Source: Xestospongia muta
Lineage: Eukaryota > Porifera > Demospongiae > Haplosclerida > Petrosiidae
Length of the DNA: 64,000 nucleotides
Direction of reading: 5' to 3'
Assembly (NCBI GenBank): GCA_963693285.1
Contig: OY848924.1
Location: 6,655,842-6,719,841, forward strand
Of this stretch, positions 1 through 31,749 are shown piece by piece. The position numbers and the translations under genes were made by a program. How positions within the stretch are numbered: position 1 is the stretch's first letter; every line of letters starts with the position of its first letter. The notes beneath the pieces were generated by a model. The model was not told the DNA's origin and ran no database searches. It worked only from the letters and a program-made list of their open reading frames with translations.

Positions 1-1
1 A

Positions 2-3000
2 GAAATTCATCACCATCGTCCAAACACTCCATCCATTCTGGTTGGTACTACACATCATTTATGTAACGATATGGATACAATTGAGAAACTTAGAAAGGCA
101 AAACAAACGCTAGTGACATATGAAGAGGTATATATTCCCTTTACATGTTAATTACTGAATTCAATGATGATATACAAGTTGTGTATTCATACTATTTACA
201 TACTATTAACCACCTCTTATTGTTTATATGATTATATAATATAATTTAAAATGTAGTATTGTTATGTAATTTAGTGTTAATGATTAGTTTAGTCAAATCT
301 TTGCTTTGGTCAGAAACAATCATGGAGTTGCTAGGATTAATCATCATTAAAGACCCACAGTTTACCTTGCAGGCAACCGCACATATTCTTTGTATGAATG
401 TGTGTGTGTACATTGTTTTTCTATAGGGTCTTCAGGTGATGAAGGAAATTGGTGCAGTAATGTATTTAGAGTGTTCATTTCTTGATCAAAAAGGAGTTAA
501 AGATGTTTTTGATGAAGCAATTCGCTTTGCTCGTGGAGATTATAATGTACATACATAATATAGTTTAATTTATTTGAAATACTTCTTTTATTATTAGGAT
601 ACTGTATTGACTCAAGCCAGTATGCAATTCCTAGTGATTGGTGATAGTGGTAGTGGTAAAACAAGTATTTTACAAACCTTCAATGATGGATCACCTACAG
701 GTATATGAATTATCATTTTTGTATTATGTATTTTGTTTGATAGATCCAAAGATTGAATTAATTACCAAGAATGTATATTGGAATGAAAAAAATCGAAAAA
801 TTATGCTACGCATACATGCCACTACCAGTACATCCTATTATAAAGATGCCATGGTACAAAACACCTCAGATTATTTATAGACCTATTCACATTGGTTCCT
901 ATATAGGGTATTTTATTGGTATATGATATTACCAGTCAAGAGTCATTTGATAACATAACAAAATGGCTACAGGATATCACAGCAGTAAGTACCTACTCAG
1001 CAAAATAATTAAAAAATCTTCTCAATCATAAAATTTTAGCATGCCTCACCAGATGTACAATGTTTCTTGGTTGGTAACAAGTTAGATATGGAGTCTGATA
1101 GACAAGTTTCTAAAGAGAGAGGAGAGCAATTGGCAAAGAAACTAAAGATGCTATTTTTTGAGATATCATCAAAAGACAAAGCTAGTATTGAGAAGGTTTT
1201 CCAAATATTGGCAAAACAAGTTTTAAAGGTATGCAATAGTGGTTGTATGAGTATATACTTCTAATGATGCATGATGTTATAACTTTAATTTTCTACAGGA
1301 AAAAGAGCAATCATTTCTTCGAAATATTGGCAGACTTTTTCAGGGAAAGGTAAACAGTTTTTATTAGTTTGATTACAATGATGATAACTTTATTGCTTAT
1401 AGAAGAAATCATTTGCTATCAATTTACAAAAGCCAACAAGTGCAGCTCTTAAATTTAAAAAGGTATATTGTAATGAGCTTAGACTCTTTAGTTTTTCATT
1501 CTCTTTAAAGATACCTCCTTCACAAGCCATCGATCAATTTACTGAAATTGGTAAGTCTTATATAATTGTAGCTGTGAGAAATCACTAAGACATTATGGTG
1601 AATTATATTGTTATTGCAATCTTTATGTAGATCAAAGAAATCTTCATAATGCTATGAAATCTGGTGGATCTGTTGAAACCAGTATTACAAAAGTTGTTGT
1701 CCAAGGTCCAGCTAGATCTGGTAAAACATCAGTCAAATGTCTAATTCTCTCTCAACGTTATGAGAGTAATATCAGTACAGGTTGTGTTGAGCCTCCACAA
1801 ATTGCTATTGGAGAATTCTCTATGAGTCAGTATGGTCAGCTGAATGAATGTCACTGGGAACTAGTCAATGATGAAAAAATGATCGAGAAGTTTGCTAATG
1901 AAGTTAGATCTCTTATTGAAAGTCAAGATATTAACAAAATATATGAAGATGAAGATGTAGACTGTCCAGTACTAACTCAACAACCACCTTTTGGCACAGC
2001 TACAGCAATTGCAAAGAAATCTAAAGTTATCATCACTAAACCAGAATACAAACTTCCTTACAGTAGTAACACATCTTCTTATCAAATATCATTGGAACCT
2101 CCTATTGAACTACCAAAAGTAAAATACAGTGCAACAAGACAGTTGTCTGAAATTGTCAATAAAGCTTCAGCTAAGGGTGTTAAGCTTACTCTACACAAAG
2201 AATGGCTCTACTTCATTGACTCTGGAGGACAGATTCAGTTTCAACAGTTGTTACAAGCCTTTATACCATGTGCATCAGTCCTTATGCTAGTTACTAATCT
2301 AGCTAAAGATCTCTCTAGCCAATCCTCCACTGTCTTACAATGTGAAGATGGAGAATACATTGTAAGTGACCACTCTCCAACTGTTGAGACACTTCTTAAA
2401 CGTCTTATACTCATGGTTAATTCTTGTGCTCAACAGCAAAAGTTGATCAGTGATACCAAGTTATCTAAAGTCATTATCAAGTCTCCAGAAAAGCTTAAAA
2501 TCATTTCCATTGCTACCCATCGTGACAAGTATGAAGAAAAACTTGAAAATAGAGAAGAGGTTGAAACTATCAAAAAGAAAGAAGAAAAGCTTGCTAAAAT
2601 ATTTCGATCCATTAAAGGCAATCTGTCTTATCATGATGTCACTAGTGGAAAGATATTATCTGAAGTTGATGGTCGTAAAGCTTCTCAGGGTGTGTTTGAT
2701 GATCCAGTGATCAAAGAGATTCGTGCTGAATTAAAGGATCAAGCTTTTGAAGTTAATATCCCATTAAGGTGGTACGCATTTGAGATTTTATTACGACAAA
2801 AAGCCATTAAAGGTTGTGGAGTACTTAGCTTGGAAGATTGTCAAGCTACTGGTCTAGGATTGGGTTTGCATATAGAAGAAATAGAGAGTGCTCTTAAGTT
2901 CTTCTATCTCCTCAATACCATCTTATATTATCCTGGAGTGAGTGATTTAGTGTTTGTCTTTCCCCACAGTTTGATTGAAGTAGTCAGTGAACTGATGATA

Positions 3001-30900: not shown

Positions 30901-31749
30901 ACATCTAAAAGGAGCTTTTGCTGTAGTAACATACTGATTAATAAGTGTTACAACAGCTATACTAAGTCTATAAAATACTCAAGTTAGCAAAGAAACAGAG
31001 TCTTATAAACTGCCACTTGACTGTGACTGTCACTGCCACACATTAAGACTAACTGGGACTTGCCATGCCTAGTTTTAACAAAATCTTGTACTTCTATCAT
31101 TTGCATAAAATAAAAAATCTTCACACAATTCTGTTGCCTATTTTATATATTTTAAATTTATAAATTTTAAATAAGTTCTTGTGCAGTGGAGCATGGCAAT
31201 TACAAACAAACTAACATCATTACAGAAACTGTCGCAAGGGTATTGCACTTTAGTGCTTTTTATTTCTTCATTACATTAATAATTTCTTATTTTCACAGCT
31301 AACAAACCAGAGAAACATGTGCTGCTCAGGTTGCTTTCTTCTATCACTGCTAAATGGCAACAGATGGGAGATCTACTTGGAGTGGATCCTAACACAATTG
31401 AGATCTTGTGTTATTCTAGTTTCCCTGATGATGTTAAGATGTCCAAGATGTTACAGAGCTGGTTGGATAATGAACCCACACCTGCTACATGGAACAACAT
31501 TATCAGTGTTATAGAGGGTCCTCTACAAAAGAAATCCCTTGCCACTGAAATCTGCCAATTCCTTGGTATAAAATCAGGTGTGTTATTTAATTATTGCTAT
31601 AATACTATTCAAGGATGTATGTTATAATGAGTGAAGTTAATAAGTTTGAACAAATAGCTTGTTTTAATTTAGTAGCACTTTTTCTAATTTGTAATTGCCT
31701 TATATTTCATATTAATATTATAGATGAACCTCACAGCAGTACTTCTTAA
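24998..31749 (+). CDS. Gene D: Rac-Rab-Roc/COR-SH3-death fusion protein, 1294 aa
   Basis: Exons: 24998-25032, 25240-25311, 25415-25485, 25541-25587, 25783-25845, 25895-26029, 26359-26484, 26562-26673, 26717-26826, 26876-26953, 27007-27195, 27266-27316, 27370-27429, 27479-27518, 27610-29742, 29939-30196, 31299-31577, 31724-31749; 3885 nt, in frame. Residues 1-183 are the best-preserved Rac-like domain (P-loop [48 protein letters not shown]), but G3 is DTAGIEDYD, Gln61 replaced by Ile. Residues 184-346 are Rab-like ([14 protein letters not shown], no G3). The large exon (to residue 1107) is Roc-like ([25 protein letters not shown]) plus COR-like. Exon 16 (1108-1193) is an SH3 domain: [36 protein letters not shown]. 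Exon 17 is a death domain ([15 protein letters not shown]). This copy looks intact. The SH3 replaces the small exon (DNDEYL) found in B and C. Partners are unknown. Confidence 0.87.
25116..25189. repeat. Inverted repeat in gene D intron 1
   Basis: CAGGAAGTCCATACT and AGTATGGACTTCCTG form a perfect 15-bp stem around an AT-rich loop, within the first intron. Gene C has an eroded version at about 16361-16438. It may be a small palindromic element inherited from the common ancestor of C and D; gene B lacks it. Confidence 0.7.
30197..31298 (+). other. Long intron of gene D between SH3 and death domain
   Basis: This 1.1-kb intron holds no recognised exon. It starts with a palindrome at 30274-30307 (TAACCCTCACCCTC / GAGGGTAAGGGTTA). 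A second diverged TAACCC...GGGTTA block lies near 30511-30536, suggesting a repeat that inserted along with, or after, the SH3 exon. Confidence 0.5.

Follow-up and report, generated by a model that had tools for sequence, protein, structure and literature searches.

Gene structure of the array

The window analysed here is a 64,000-nucleotide stretch of the genome of the sponge Xestospongia muta (C8:6655842-6719841; assembly of 158 Mb in 28 contigs). It holds a tandem array of paralogues, copies A to D, in which a Rac-like module, a Rab-like module, linker exons, one large Roc-COR exon and death-domain exons follow one another on the same strand. The predicted product would run, from its N-terminus, through a Rac1 copy, a Rab8/10-like copy, a linker, a Roc-COR GTPase engine, SH3 in some copies, and one or two death domains. 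Exon models of the copies were obtained with a purpose-written spliced protein-to-DNA aligner, which penalises stops, and about 79 kb upstream of the window was also examined (negative coordinates lie before window base 1).

An exon-by-exon rebuild of copy D gave 18 exons (24998-31749), 17 of 17 introns GT-AG, and 1,294 residues followed by a stop; the aligner recovered the same exons identically. Copy B likewise has 18 exons (7740-14210), all of its introns GT-AG, and encodes 1,275 residues and a stop, with two death-domain exons. The initial annotation had described four tandem paralogues with a fused Rac-Rab-Roc/COR-death chain, unbroken over 1,308 residues in B and 1,294 in D. The exon models and the aligner bear out the fused tandem arrangement and the frame of D, and the length given for B was not reproduced. 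Three of the four paralogues (A, B and D) are open from Rac through Roc-COR; copy C has a TAA at 19255-19257 within the large exon and appears broken, and the first Rac exons of copy A lie upstream of window base 1. The modules of the array, and an intact Rab gene beside it, are as follows.

1-546, plus strand: copy A, 3' part of the Rac module in two exons, -7 to 127 and 427 to 546 (earlier exons, -871 to -57, before the window); spliced alignment, tblastn
598-1550, plus strand: copy A, Rab module (598-1228) and linker exons (1299-1550); tblastn, spliced alignment
1631-3757, plus strand: copy A, divergent Roc-COR exon; open reading frame (ORF), 85% identity to D
3969-4229, plus strand: copy A, diverged death-domain exon, SH3 not found; tblastn 42.5% identity, among six sequences tested for Death
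7740-9674, plus strand: copy B, Rac module, 7 exons; residues 60-62 absent in the model, dependent on the choice of exon 4 acceptor
9723-10656, plus strand: copy B, Rab module and linker exons; first Rab exon without an upstream in-frame ATG back to the previous stop
10711-12819, plus strand: copy B, Roc-COR exon
13014-14210, plus strand: copy B, death-domain exons (13014-13316 and 13693-13962) and last exon; Death family match
16246-17730, plus strand: copy C, Rac module with degenerate P-loop (R12, D15)
17895-18840, plus strand: copy C, Rab module and linker exons; one base deleted near 18512 in comparison with D
18923-21025, plus strand: copy C, Roc-COR exon broken by the TAA
21219-22295, plus strand: copy C, two death-domain exons
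24998-26484, plus strand: copy D, Rac module, exons 1-7; Q61 changed to I; PDB Rac1, E 8.6e-99
26562-27195, plus strand: copy D, Rab module, exons 8-11; no in-frame ATG from the previous stop to the P-loop; PDB Rab10/Rab8A
27266-27518, plus strand: copy D, linker exons 12-14, in which a vestige of the Rab tail is recognizable (two 12-residue sequences compared)
27610-29742, plus strand: copy D, Roc-COR exon 15, phase 1 at both ends, with a 14-residue motif and a THRD motif
29939-30196, plus strand: copy D, SH3 exon, phase 1 at both ends; Pfam
31299-31749, plus strand: copy D, terminal exons: death domain at 31299-31577, with phase 1 on either side, and a final exon at 31724-31749; Pfam
34221-35858, plus strand: intact stand-alone Rab gene, 5 exons, 210 residues, KGCC end followed by a stop; parent-like source of the Rab module

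The array continues upstream of the window. Rac, Rab, linker, Roc-COR, SH3 and death domain are all present in copies F (from -24633 to around -19007) and G (from -11439 to around -5886), and copy K (from -59572) has the first four of these and a weak match to a death domain (E 0.078). Copy H (-31813 to -29391) consists of Rac, Rab and linker only, with no forward Roc-COR match before the next unit. In copy J (from -70816), the first part of which aligned poorly, the first module is Rab-like in place of Rac. Rac units without Rab occur near -48.7 kb and -35.4 kb, and a locus 345 kb away (L027, C8:6310904) has the same domain order with one TGA in its large exon. A single open GT-AG frame from Rac through Rab and linker to Roc-COR was found in A, B, D, F, G and K, which are relatives by duplication and do not amount to six independent observations. 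Inverted fragments of Roc-COR exon ends lie between array units on the minus strand, at -25649 to -25333 and -1895 to -1578.

Separate or decaying genes, with Rac, Rab and Roc-COR as tandem neighbours transcribed separately or decayed to pseudogenes and the joined frame as an artefact of permissive splicing, would account for the stops in C and L027, the lack of Roc-COR in H and the Rac units without Rab. Against this, the Rac-Rab junction was modelled in phase 0 in all eight copies examined (A, B, C, D, F, G, H and K), the sequence at the junction being of three or more kinds, and the first Rab exon of B and D has no in-frame ATG before a stop upstream; copy C has a methionine just before the Rab P-loop. 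Furthermore, the ratio of nonsynonymous to synonymous divergence (dN/dS) is below 1 in most pairs for both the linker and Roc-COR (0.18-0.55 for Roc-COR across the pairs compared), and the Rac modules of six copies hold no stops where about 15 would be expected without selection, a difference to which the aligner's avoidance of stops contributes. We therefore regard separate or decaying genes as improbable. The same count, with the same qualification, led to the rejection of the Rac module as neutral debris.

The internal Rac and Rab modules do lack prenylation tails, as the initial annotation had it: no CAAX box closes any of the eight Rac modules, nor does one appear if translation is continued to the stop, and the Rab tail runs into the linker exons. 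The architecture is well supported, and each intact copy is predicted to be one gene, the modules of which would be joined in a single transcript.

Origin of the modules and exchange at the N-terminal position

The genome's own Rac1 gene (L057, C10:3864401-3866948) has 193 codons and ends GCTVL. Its introns lie after codon positions 11.67, 35.67, 59.33, 75, 96 and 141, identical to those of the Rac module of copy D, for which Rac1 is the best PDB relative. Each of the four introns of the intact Rab gene has a counterpart of the same phase at the corresponding site of the Rab module, the linker retains a trace of the Rab gene tail, and the best PDB relatives of the Rab module are Rab10 and Rab8A (E 1.5e-34 and weaker). 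A near-identical second intact Rab gene lies at -16454, between F and G. Shared introns and kinship together indicate that both modules are copies of Rac1- and Rab-type genes that kept their introns and lost their prenylation ends; on this evidence the Rac and Rab modules are copies of host proteins. Over the Rac and Rab modules, synonymous divergence (dS) from each candidate parent is greater than 1, and descent directly from precisely these two genes can therefore only be presumed. Directly before the intact Rab gene of the window, 32850-33005 is a lone first exon of another Rab-like gene, and matches of this exon and intact Rab pair recur about 50 kb upstream.

Pfam scans of copy D returned Ras for both the Rac module (151 bits) and the Rab module (130 bits), and SH3 at 46.7 bits. 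Among A to D, SH3 is found only in D; the upstream copies F and G also have it. All six death-exon sequences of the window matched Death (best E 0.0027). Across 18 large exons of the family, Roc was matched in eight (best E 0.031) and COR-A in three (best E 0.0017). Neither the large exon by itself nor its 18-row profile gave anything meaningful in PDB searches. In an hhalign comparison with L058, an LRRK2-type ROCO of the same genome (LRRK2, E 5.5e-69), the large-exon profile scored 45.8 (probability 71%), against no more than 24.8 for 40 shuffles, 22.3 for the reversed profile, 18.2 for the Rac module and 27.5 for the Rab module. The alignment is colinear over about 300 columns, from DSGGQ through THRD into COR. 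The GPARxGKTS and DxGGQ residues, T296 and D299 are invariant in 18 of 18 members, and H297 is present in at least 90%, the members having been chosen for an intact frame. Judged by these comparisons and motifs, the large exon is a divergent Roc-COR.

The genome evidently holds a very large ROCO expansion: genome-wide counts of COR-A, Death and Roc matches are at least about 150 each. The COR-A matches lie on C1, C3, C5, C6, C10, C12 and C15 among other contigs, and many fall in single open frames of about 700-800 codons. The large-exon type was scored for 63 of 681 candidates, giving 94 matches, several per gene.

The Roc-COR, SH3 and death exons of D are all phase 1 at both ends, and phase 1-1 exons are the class that shuffles freely. 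We examined the 1.0-1.5 kb upstream of the large exon at 30 family loci (L017-L046). Within this flank, a Rac or Rab module was absent from all 19 loci outside the C8 array (L028-L046). At two loci in the same chromosome region as the array (C8:6542444 and C8:6554924), an SH2-tyrosine kinase lies upstream instead (SH2 84 bits; kinase 316 and 317 bits), matching Src at E 1.6e-147 in the second of them (L022). In both, SH2-kinase and linker, ending NQFTEIG, form one ORF, with a phase-1 donor sequence identical to that of D and an acceptor into Roc-COR of the same kind as in D. The Src-like module is the firmest case of exchange at this position.

Two further module types come from other contigs. 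The Roc-COR cluster at 12.75-12.83 Mb on C3 holds nine of the 10 TAZ matches and all four KIX matches listed for the genome, and on C5, alpha-actinin was matched (E 1.4e-69; CH 48.5 bits) by ORF pieces, joined by hand, that precede a Roc-COR exon. Fusion on C3 and C5 is suggested by position, strand and an ag|AT acceptor seen in L029, L030 and L033. Src-like, CBP/p300-like and alpha-actinin-like modules before the same large exon make the Rac-Rab pair look like one instance of a swappable slot. Among 10 chosen flank ORFs, Pfam matches exceeded the cut-off in four (two SH2-kinase, two TAZ), fell below it in two (KIX, Death) and were lacking in four, and six of 25 loci (L035, L039, L040, L041, L043 and L044) had no coding-looking upstream ORF; with so few flank ORFs identified, swapping is demonstrated for a minority of the family only. 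No Pfam match was obtained for a 147-residue ORF upstream of L034 or for the two short CH pieces of L033 on their own.

Other features were observed at these loci. At C3:12752043-12829285, CBP/p300-like TAZ and KIX sequences are interleaved with Roc-COR exons, and the last TAZ-KIX-TAZ set, after which no Roc-COR exon is listed, may be the parent CBP gene. A 314-residue exon upstream of a Roc-COR gene (L028:59-1000) is a candidate module with no Pfam and no significant PDB match.

Altered residues and selection in the Rac module

Compared with Rac1, each of the eight Rac modules in the tabulation (A, B, C, D, F, G, H and K) is changed at one or more of residues 12, 60 and 61, which serve hydrolysis; the tabulation did not include L027 or the two Rac units without Rab, near -48.7 kb and -35.4 kb. 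The changes are as follows.

Copy A: R12
Copies B and K: 60-61 missing, a gap (60-62) that depends on the modelled exon 4 acceptor, the usual AG of which is replaced in B
Copy C: R12, H61
Copy D: I61
Copy F: E12
Copy G: R12, S60
Copy H: Y12, D60, G61

T17 and D57 are kept in eight of eight modules, and K16, Y32 and T35 in seven of eight each. The Rab module of D lacks the DTAGQ of the neighbouring Rab gene, as do other copies by reading of the alignments. The initial annotation inferred a chain that receives small-GTPase-like signals. The altered residues do not support Rac and Rab domains that act as functional switches for such signals, and the idea of a single chain with three switches at work, Rac, Rab and Roc, was rejected on the Rac changes.

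Pairwise bootstrap dN/dS for the Rac module was above 1 for A-D (1.94, P 0.009) and D-F (1.88, P 0.005), was not significantly above 1 for C-D (1.56, P 0.066), A-G (1.44, P 0.084), F-G (1.42, P 0.10) and D-G (1.21, P 0.23), and was below 1 for B-D (0.86) and G-K (0.80). In site models of the six intact copies, log-likelihoods were -1791.5 (M1a) and -1777.4 (M2a), so that twice the difference (2dL) was 28.1, with omega (dN/dS) of 6.3 at 18% of sites. On other trees 2dL was 28.1-30.2, and with eight copies 42.2. The first half of the module gave 30.0 and the second 4.4-7.0, depending on the tree. Twelve data sets simulated without positive selection reached at most 6.1 (six, one tree) and 10.3 (six, two topologies). 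Sites with a posterior of at least 0.9 in at least one set include 12, 18, 27, 39, 51, 61 and 86; we take 39 and 61 to be residues attacked by bacterial Rho-modifying toxins, a lead only. The site models point to positive selection on the Rac module. Roc-COR is conserved, with an omega of 0.34.

These residues bear on the chief alternative to a bait function, in which the fused Rac and Rab copies would be built-in activators acting in cis, a hydrolysis-dead, GTP-like Rac recruiting Rac effectors upon ROCO assembly. ROCO proteins, LRRK2 among them, have Rab8/10 and Rac as partners or substrates, and the kinship of the Rab module to Rab10 and Rab8A fits such a role. So do the five of eight Rac modules (A, B, D, F and K) that keep the GKT P-loop and have lost a hydrolysis residue, and copy D, which retains the Rac1 switch-I sequence along with I61. 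Regulation in cis leaves unexplained the damaged P-loops of the C, G and H Rac modules and the high-omega class of Rac sites, as well as the Src-like, CBP/p300 and alpha-actinin modules before the same exon type, and we consider it unlikely, though the foremost of the alternatives.

Candidate immune function and related systems

On the reading that we prefer, and to which we give an even chance, the array genes would be ROCO-death proteins with integrated host-protein baits, acting as intracellular immune receptors and resembling the integrated decoys of plant NLRs. A more specific version falls a little short of that: animal immune receptors with a ROCO engine, the N-terminal slot of which would hold copies of microbe-attacked host proteins gained via the phase-1 splice site, with the Rac bait in an arms race. 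Two other parts of the same joint reading are held just as tentatively. One is that the slot proteins comprise Rac1 with Rab8/10, Src, CBP/p300 and alpha-actinin, the Rac and Rab copies with their introns; the other is that the family would be an independently evolved animal counterpart of plant NLR integrated decoys. The array genes would form one branch of a larger family, in which a Roc-COR-death backbone bears copies of host hub proteins in the N-terminal slot. A microbial effector or toxin targeting Rac or Rab would engage the disabled copy, as the sequence pattern suggests; the Roc-COR engine would then switch from resting to active, by analogy with ROCO biology; and the death domains, as death-domain biology would predict, would nucleate a death-fold complex leading to cell death or inflammation-like signalling. 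The immune or cell-death role raised by the initial annotation is therefore plausible on the sequence evidence.

Several results weigh against the bait reading. Neither the Rab module (2dL 2.3) nor the Src-like pair (omega 0.50) showed significant positive selection, only two of the eight Rac pairs compared exceeded 1 significantly, with two of the other six below it, and the overall Rac omega (M0) of 0.93 is not different from 1; relaxed constraint could account for part of the Rac changes. Rac and Roc-COR dS values conflict in both directions (0.13 versus about 0.24 for A-D, 0.14 versus about 0.06 for A-G) and the module trees differ, so that gene conversion or reassortment, which can inflate site tests, is likely. 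The null results for Rab and Src-like modules and gene conversion weaken the simplest decoy story. The aligner's penalty on stops means that the open frames are partly built in, and the gap in the B and K Rac modules carries the acceptor dependence given above. The domain scan and structure prediction suggested by the initial annotation succeeded in part: Ras and SH3 exceeded the cut-off in D, Death (E 0.021) and Roc (E 0.18) were below it, and COR was not found. The structure models, by AlphaFold for the Roc-COR exon from three window sequences (mean predicted local distance difference test score, pLDDT, of 29) and for the death domain (pLDDT 61), were too poor for use, and a fold search with the death-domain model gave no PDB match at E <= 0.001.

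Allorecognition, with the variable Rac module as a polymorphic label of self and non-self and not a microbe bait, is very unlikely. A tandem array, a diversifying module and a death-type output would suit it, and sponges show allo-incompatibility (PMC8195603). The modules resemble cytosolic hub proteins, and the models begin at the Rac1 methionine with no leader, in the course of analyses that included no search aimed at surface features.

Among known proteins, DAPK1 has a Ser/Thr kinase at its N-terminus, ankyrin repeats, and a death domain at its C-terminus. The array genes resemble DAPK1 and LRRK2 in the predicted order Roc then COR, and DAPK1 in the predicted C-terminal death domain. They differ in that kinase, ankyrin and leucine-rich repeat (LRR) domains were not among the Pfam matches in the scanned parts of D, that Rac1 and Rab copies stand in front, and that the Roc-COR is very divergent.

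Integrated decoys are known from plant NLRs, with candidate fungal ones too (PMC12258605). Their pattern is the one seen in the array: an engine that is conserved, an output of death type, and a variable slot with host-protein copies that are altered and evolve fast. There, as in the array, a conserved NTPase engine is joined to extra domains resembling host proteins, kinases included. In the array, the engine is Roc-COR and not NB-ARC or NACHT (neither was among the matches in Pfam scans of the D parts or the 18 large exons), the output is an animal death domain, two GTPase copies stand in series, and the candidate bait is known from sequence alone. That hosts sense it when pathogens attack Rho GTPases is well known (PMC8084149); Pyrin and other NLRs likewise watch Rho GTPases as pathogen targets, but sense the state of the real GTPase, whereas the candidate receptor of the array has a built-in copy. 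The brown-algal LRR-ROC-COR genes are, according to PMC11378527, also an expanded ROCO family with exon shuffling and a proposed immune receptor role; LRR exons are shuffled there, and whole host-protein modules in the array.

The closest prior work, from 2021, describes how death/TRADD-N genes expanded in Amphimedon, their partners varying and including kinase, SH2 and SH3 (PMC8195603). Those genes share with the array lineage expansion, death-type domains and variable partners, but have a death and TRADD-N backbone with a variable C-terminus. In the main text of that paper the whole words Rab, KIX and decoy do not occur and Ras occurs once, with no animal Rac/Rab fusion. KIX and COR are both named in the legend to a figure of a paper on Dysidea NLRs (PMC12909245), a possible parallel only. 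At title and abstract level, the Rac-Rab-Roc-COR-death architecture was not found described in the literature, which is weak evidence, with much subscription literature outside that scope.

If the bait reading is correct, plants and fungi are not alone in having integrated decoys, and the captured modules amount to a record of the host hubs that microbes attacked in an early animal lineage. The array also suggests a route of receptor formation, in which copies of whole host genes, with intact Rab genes beside and among the units, would be spliced onto a class 1-1 engine exon. Even without decoys, two small GTPases in series with a third GTPase and a death domain would make an unusual and directly testable protein.

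Elsewhere in the window, exons resembling a trypsin-like serine protease (57517-58911, minus strand) and an ORF like a TM9SF membrane protein (54991-55428) were recognized by eye. A minisatellite at 58043-58556 gives HPSIHHQ-like peptide repeats in three overlapping forward ORFs, and a CT-rich microsatellite at 37595-38161 gives long SL and RE repeat ORFs.

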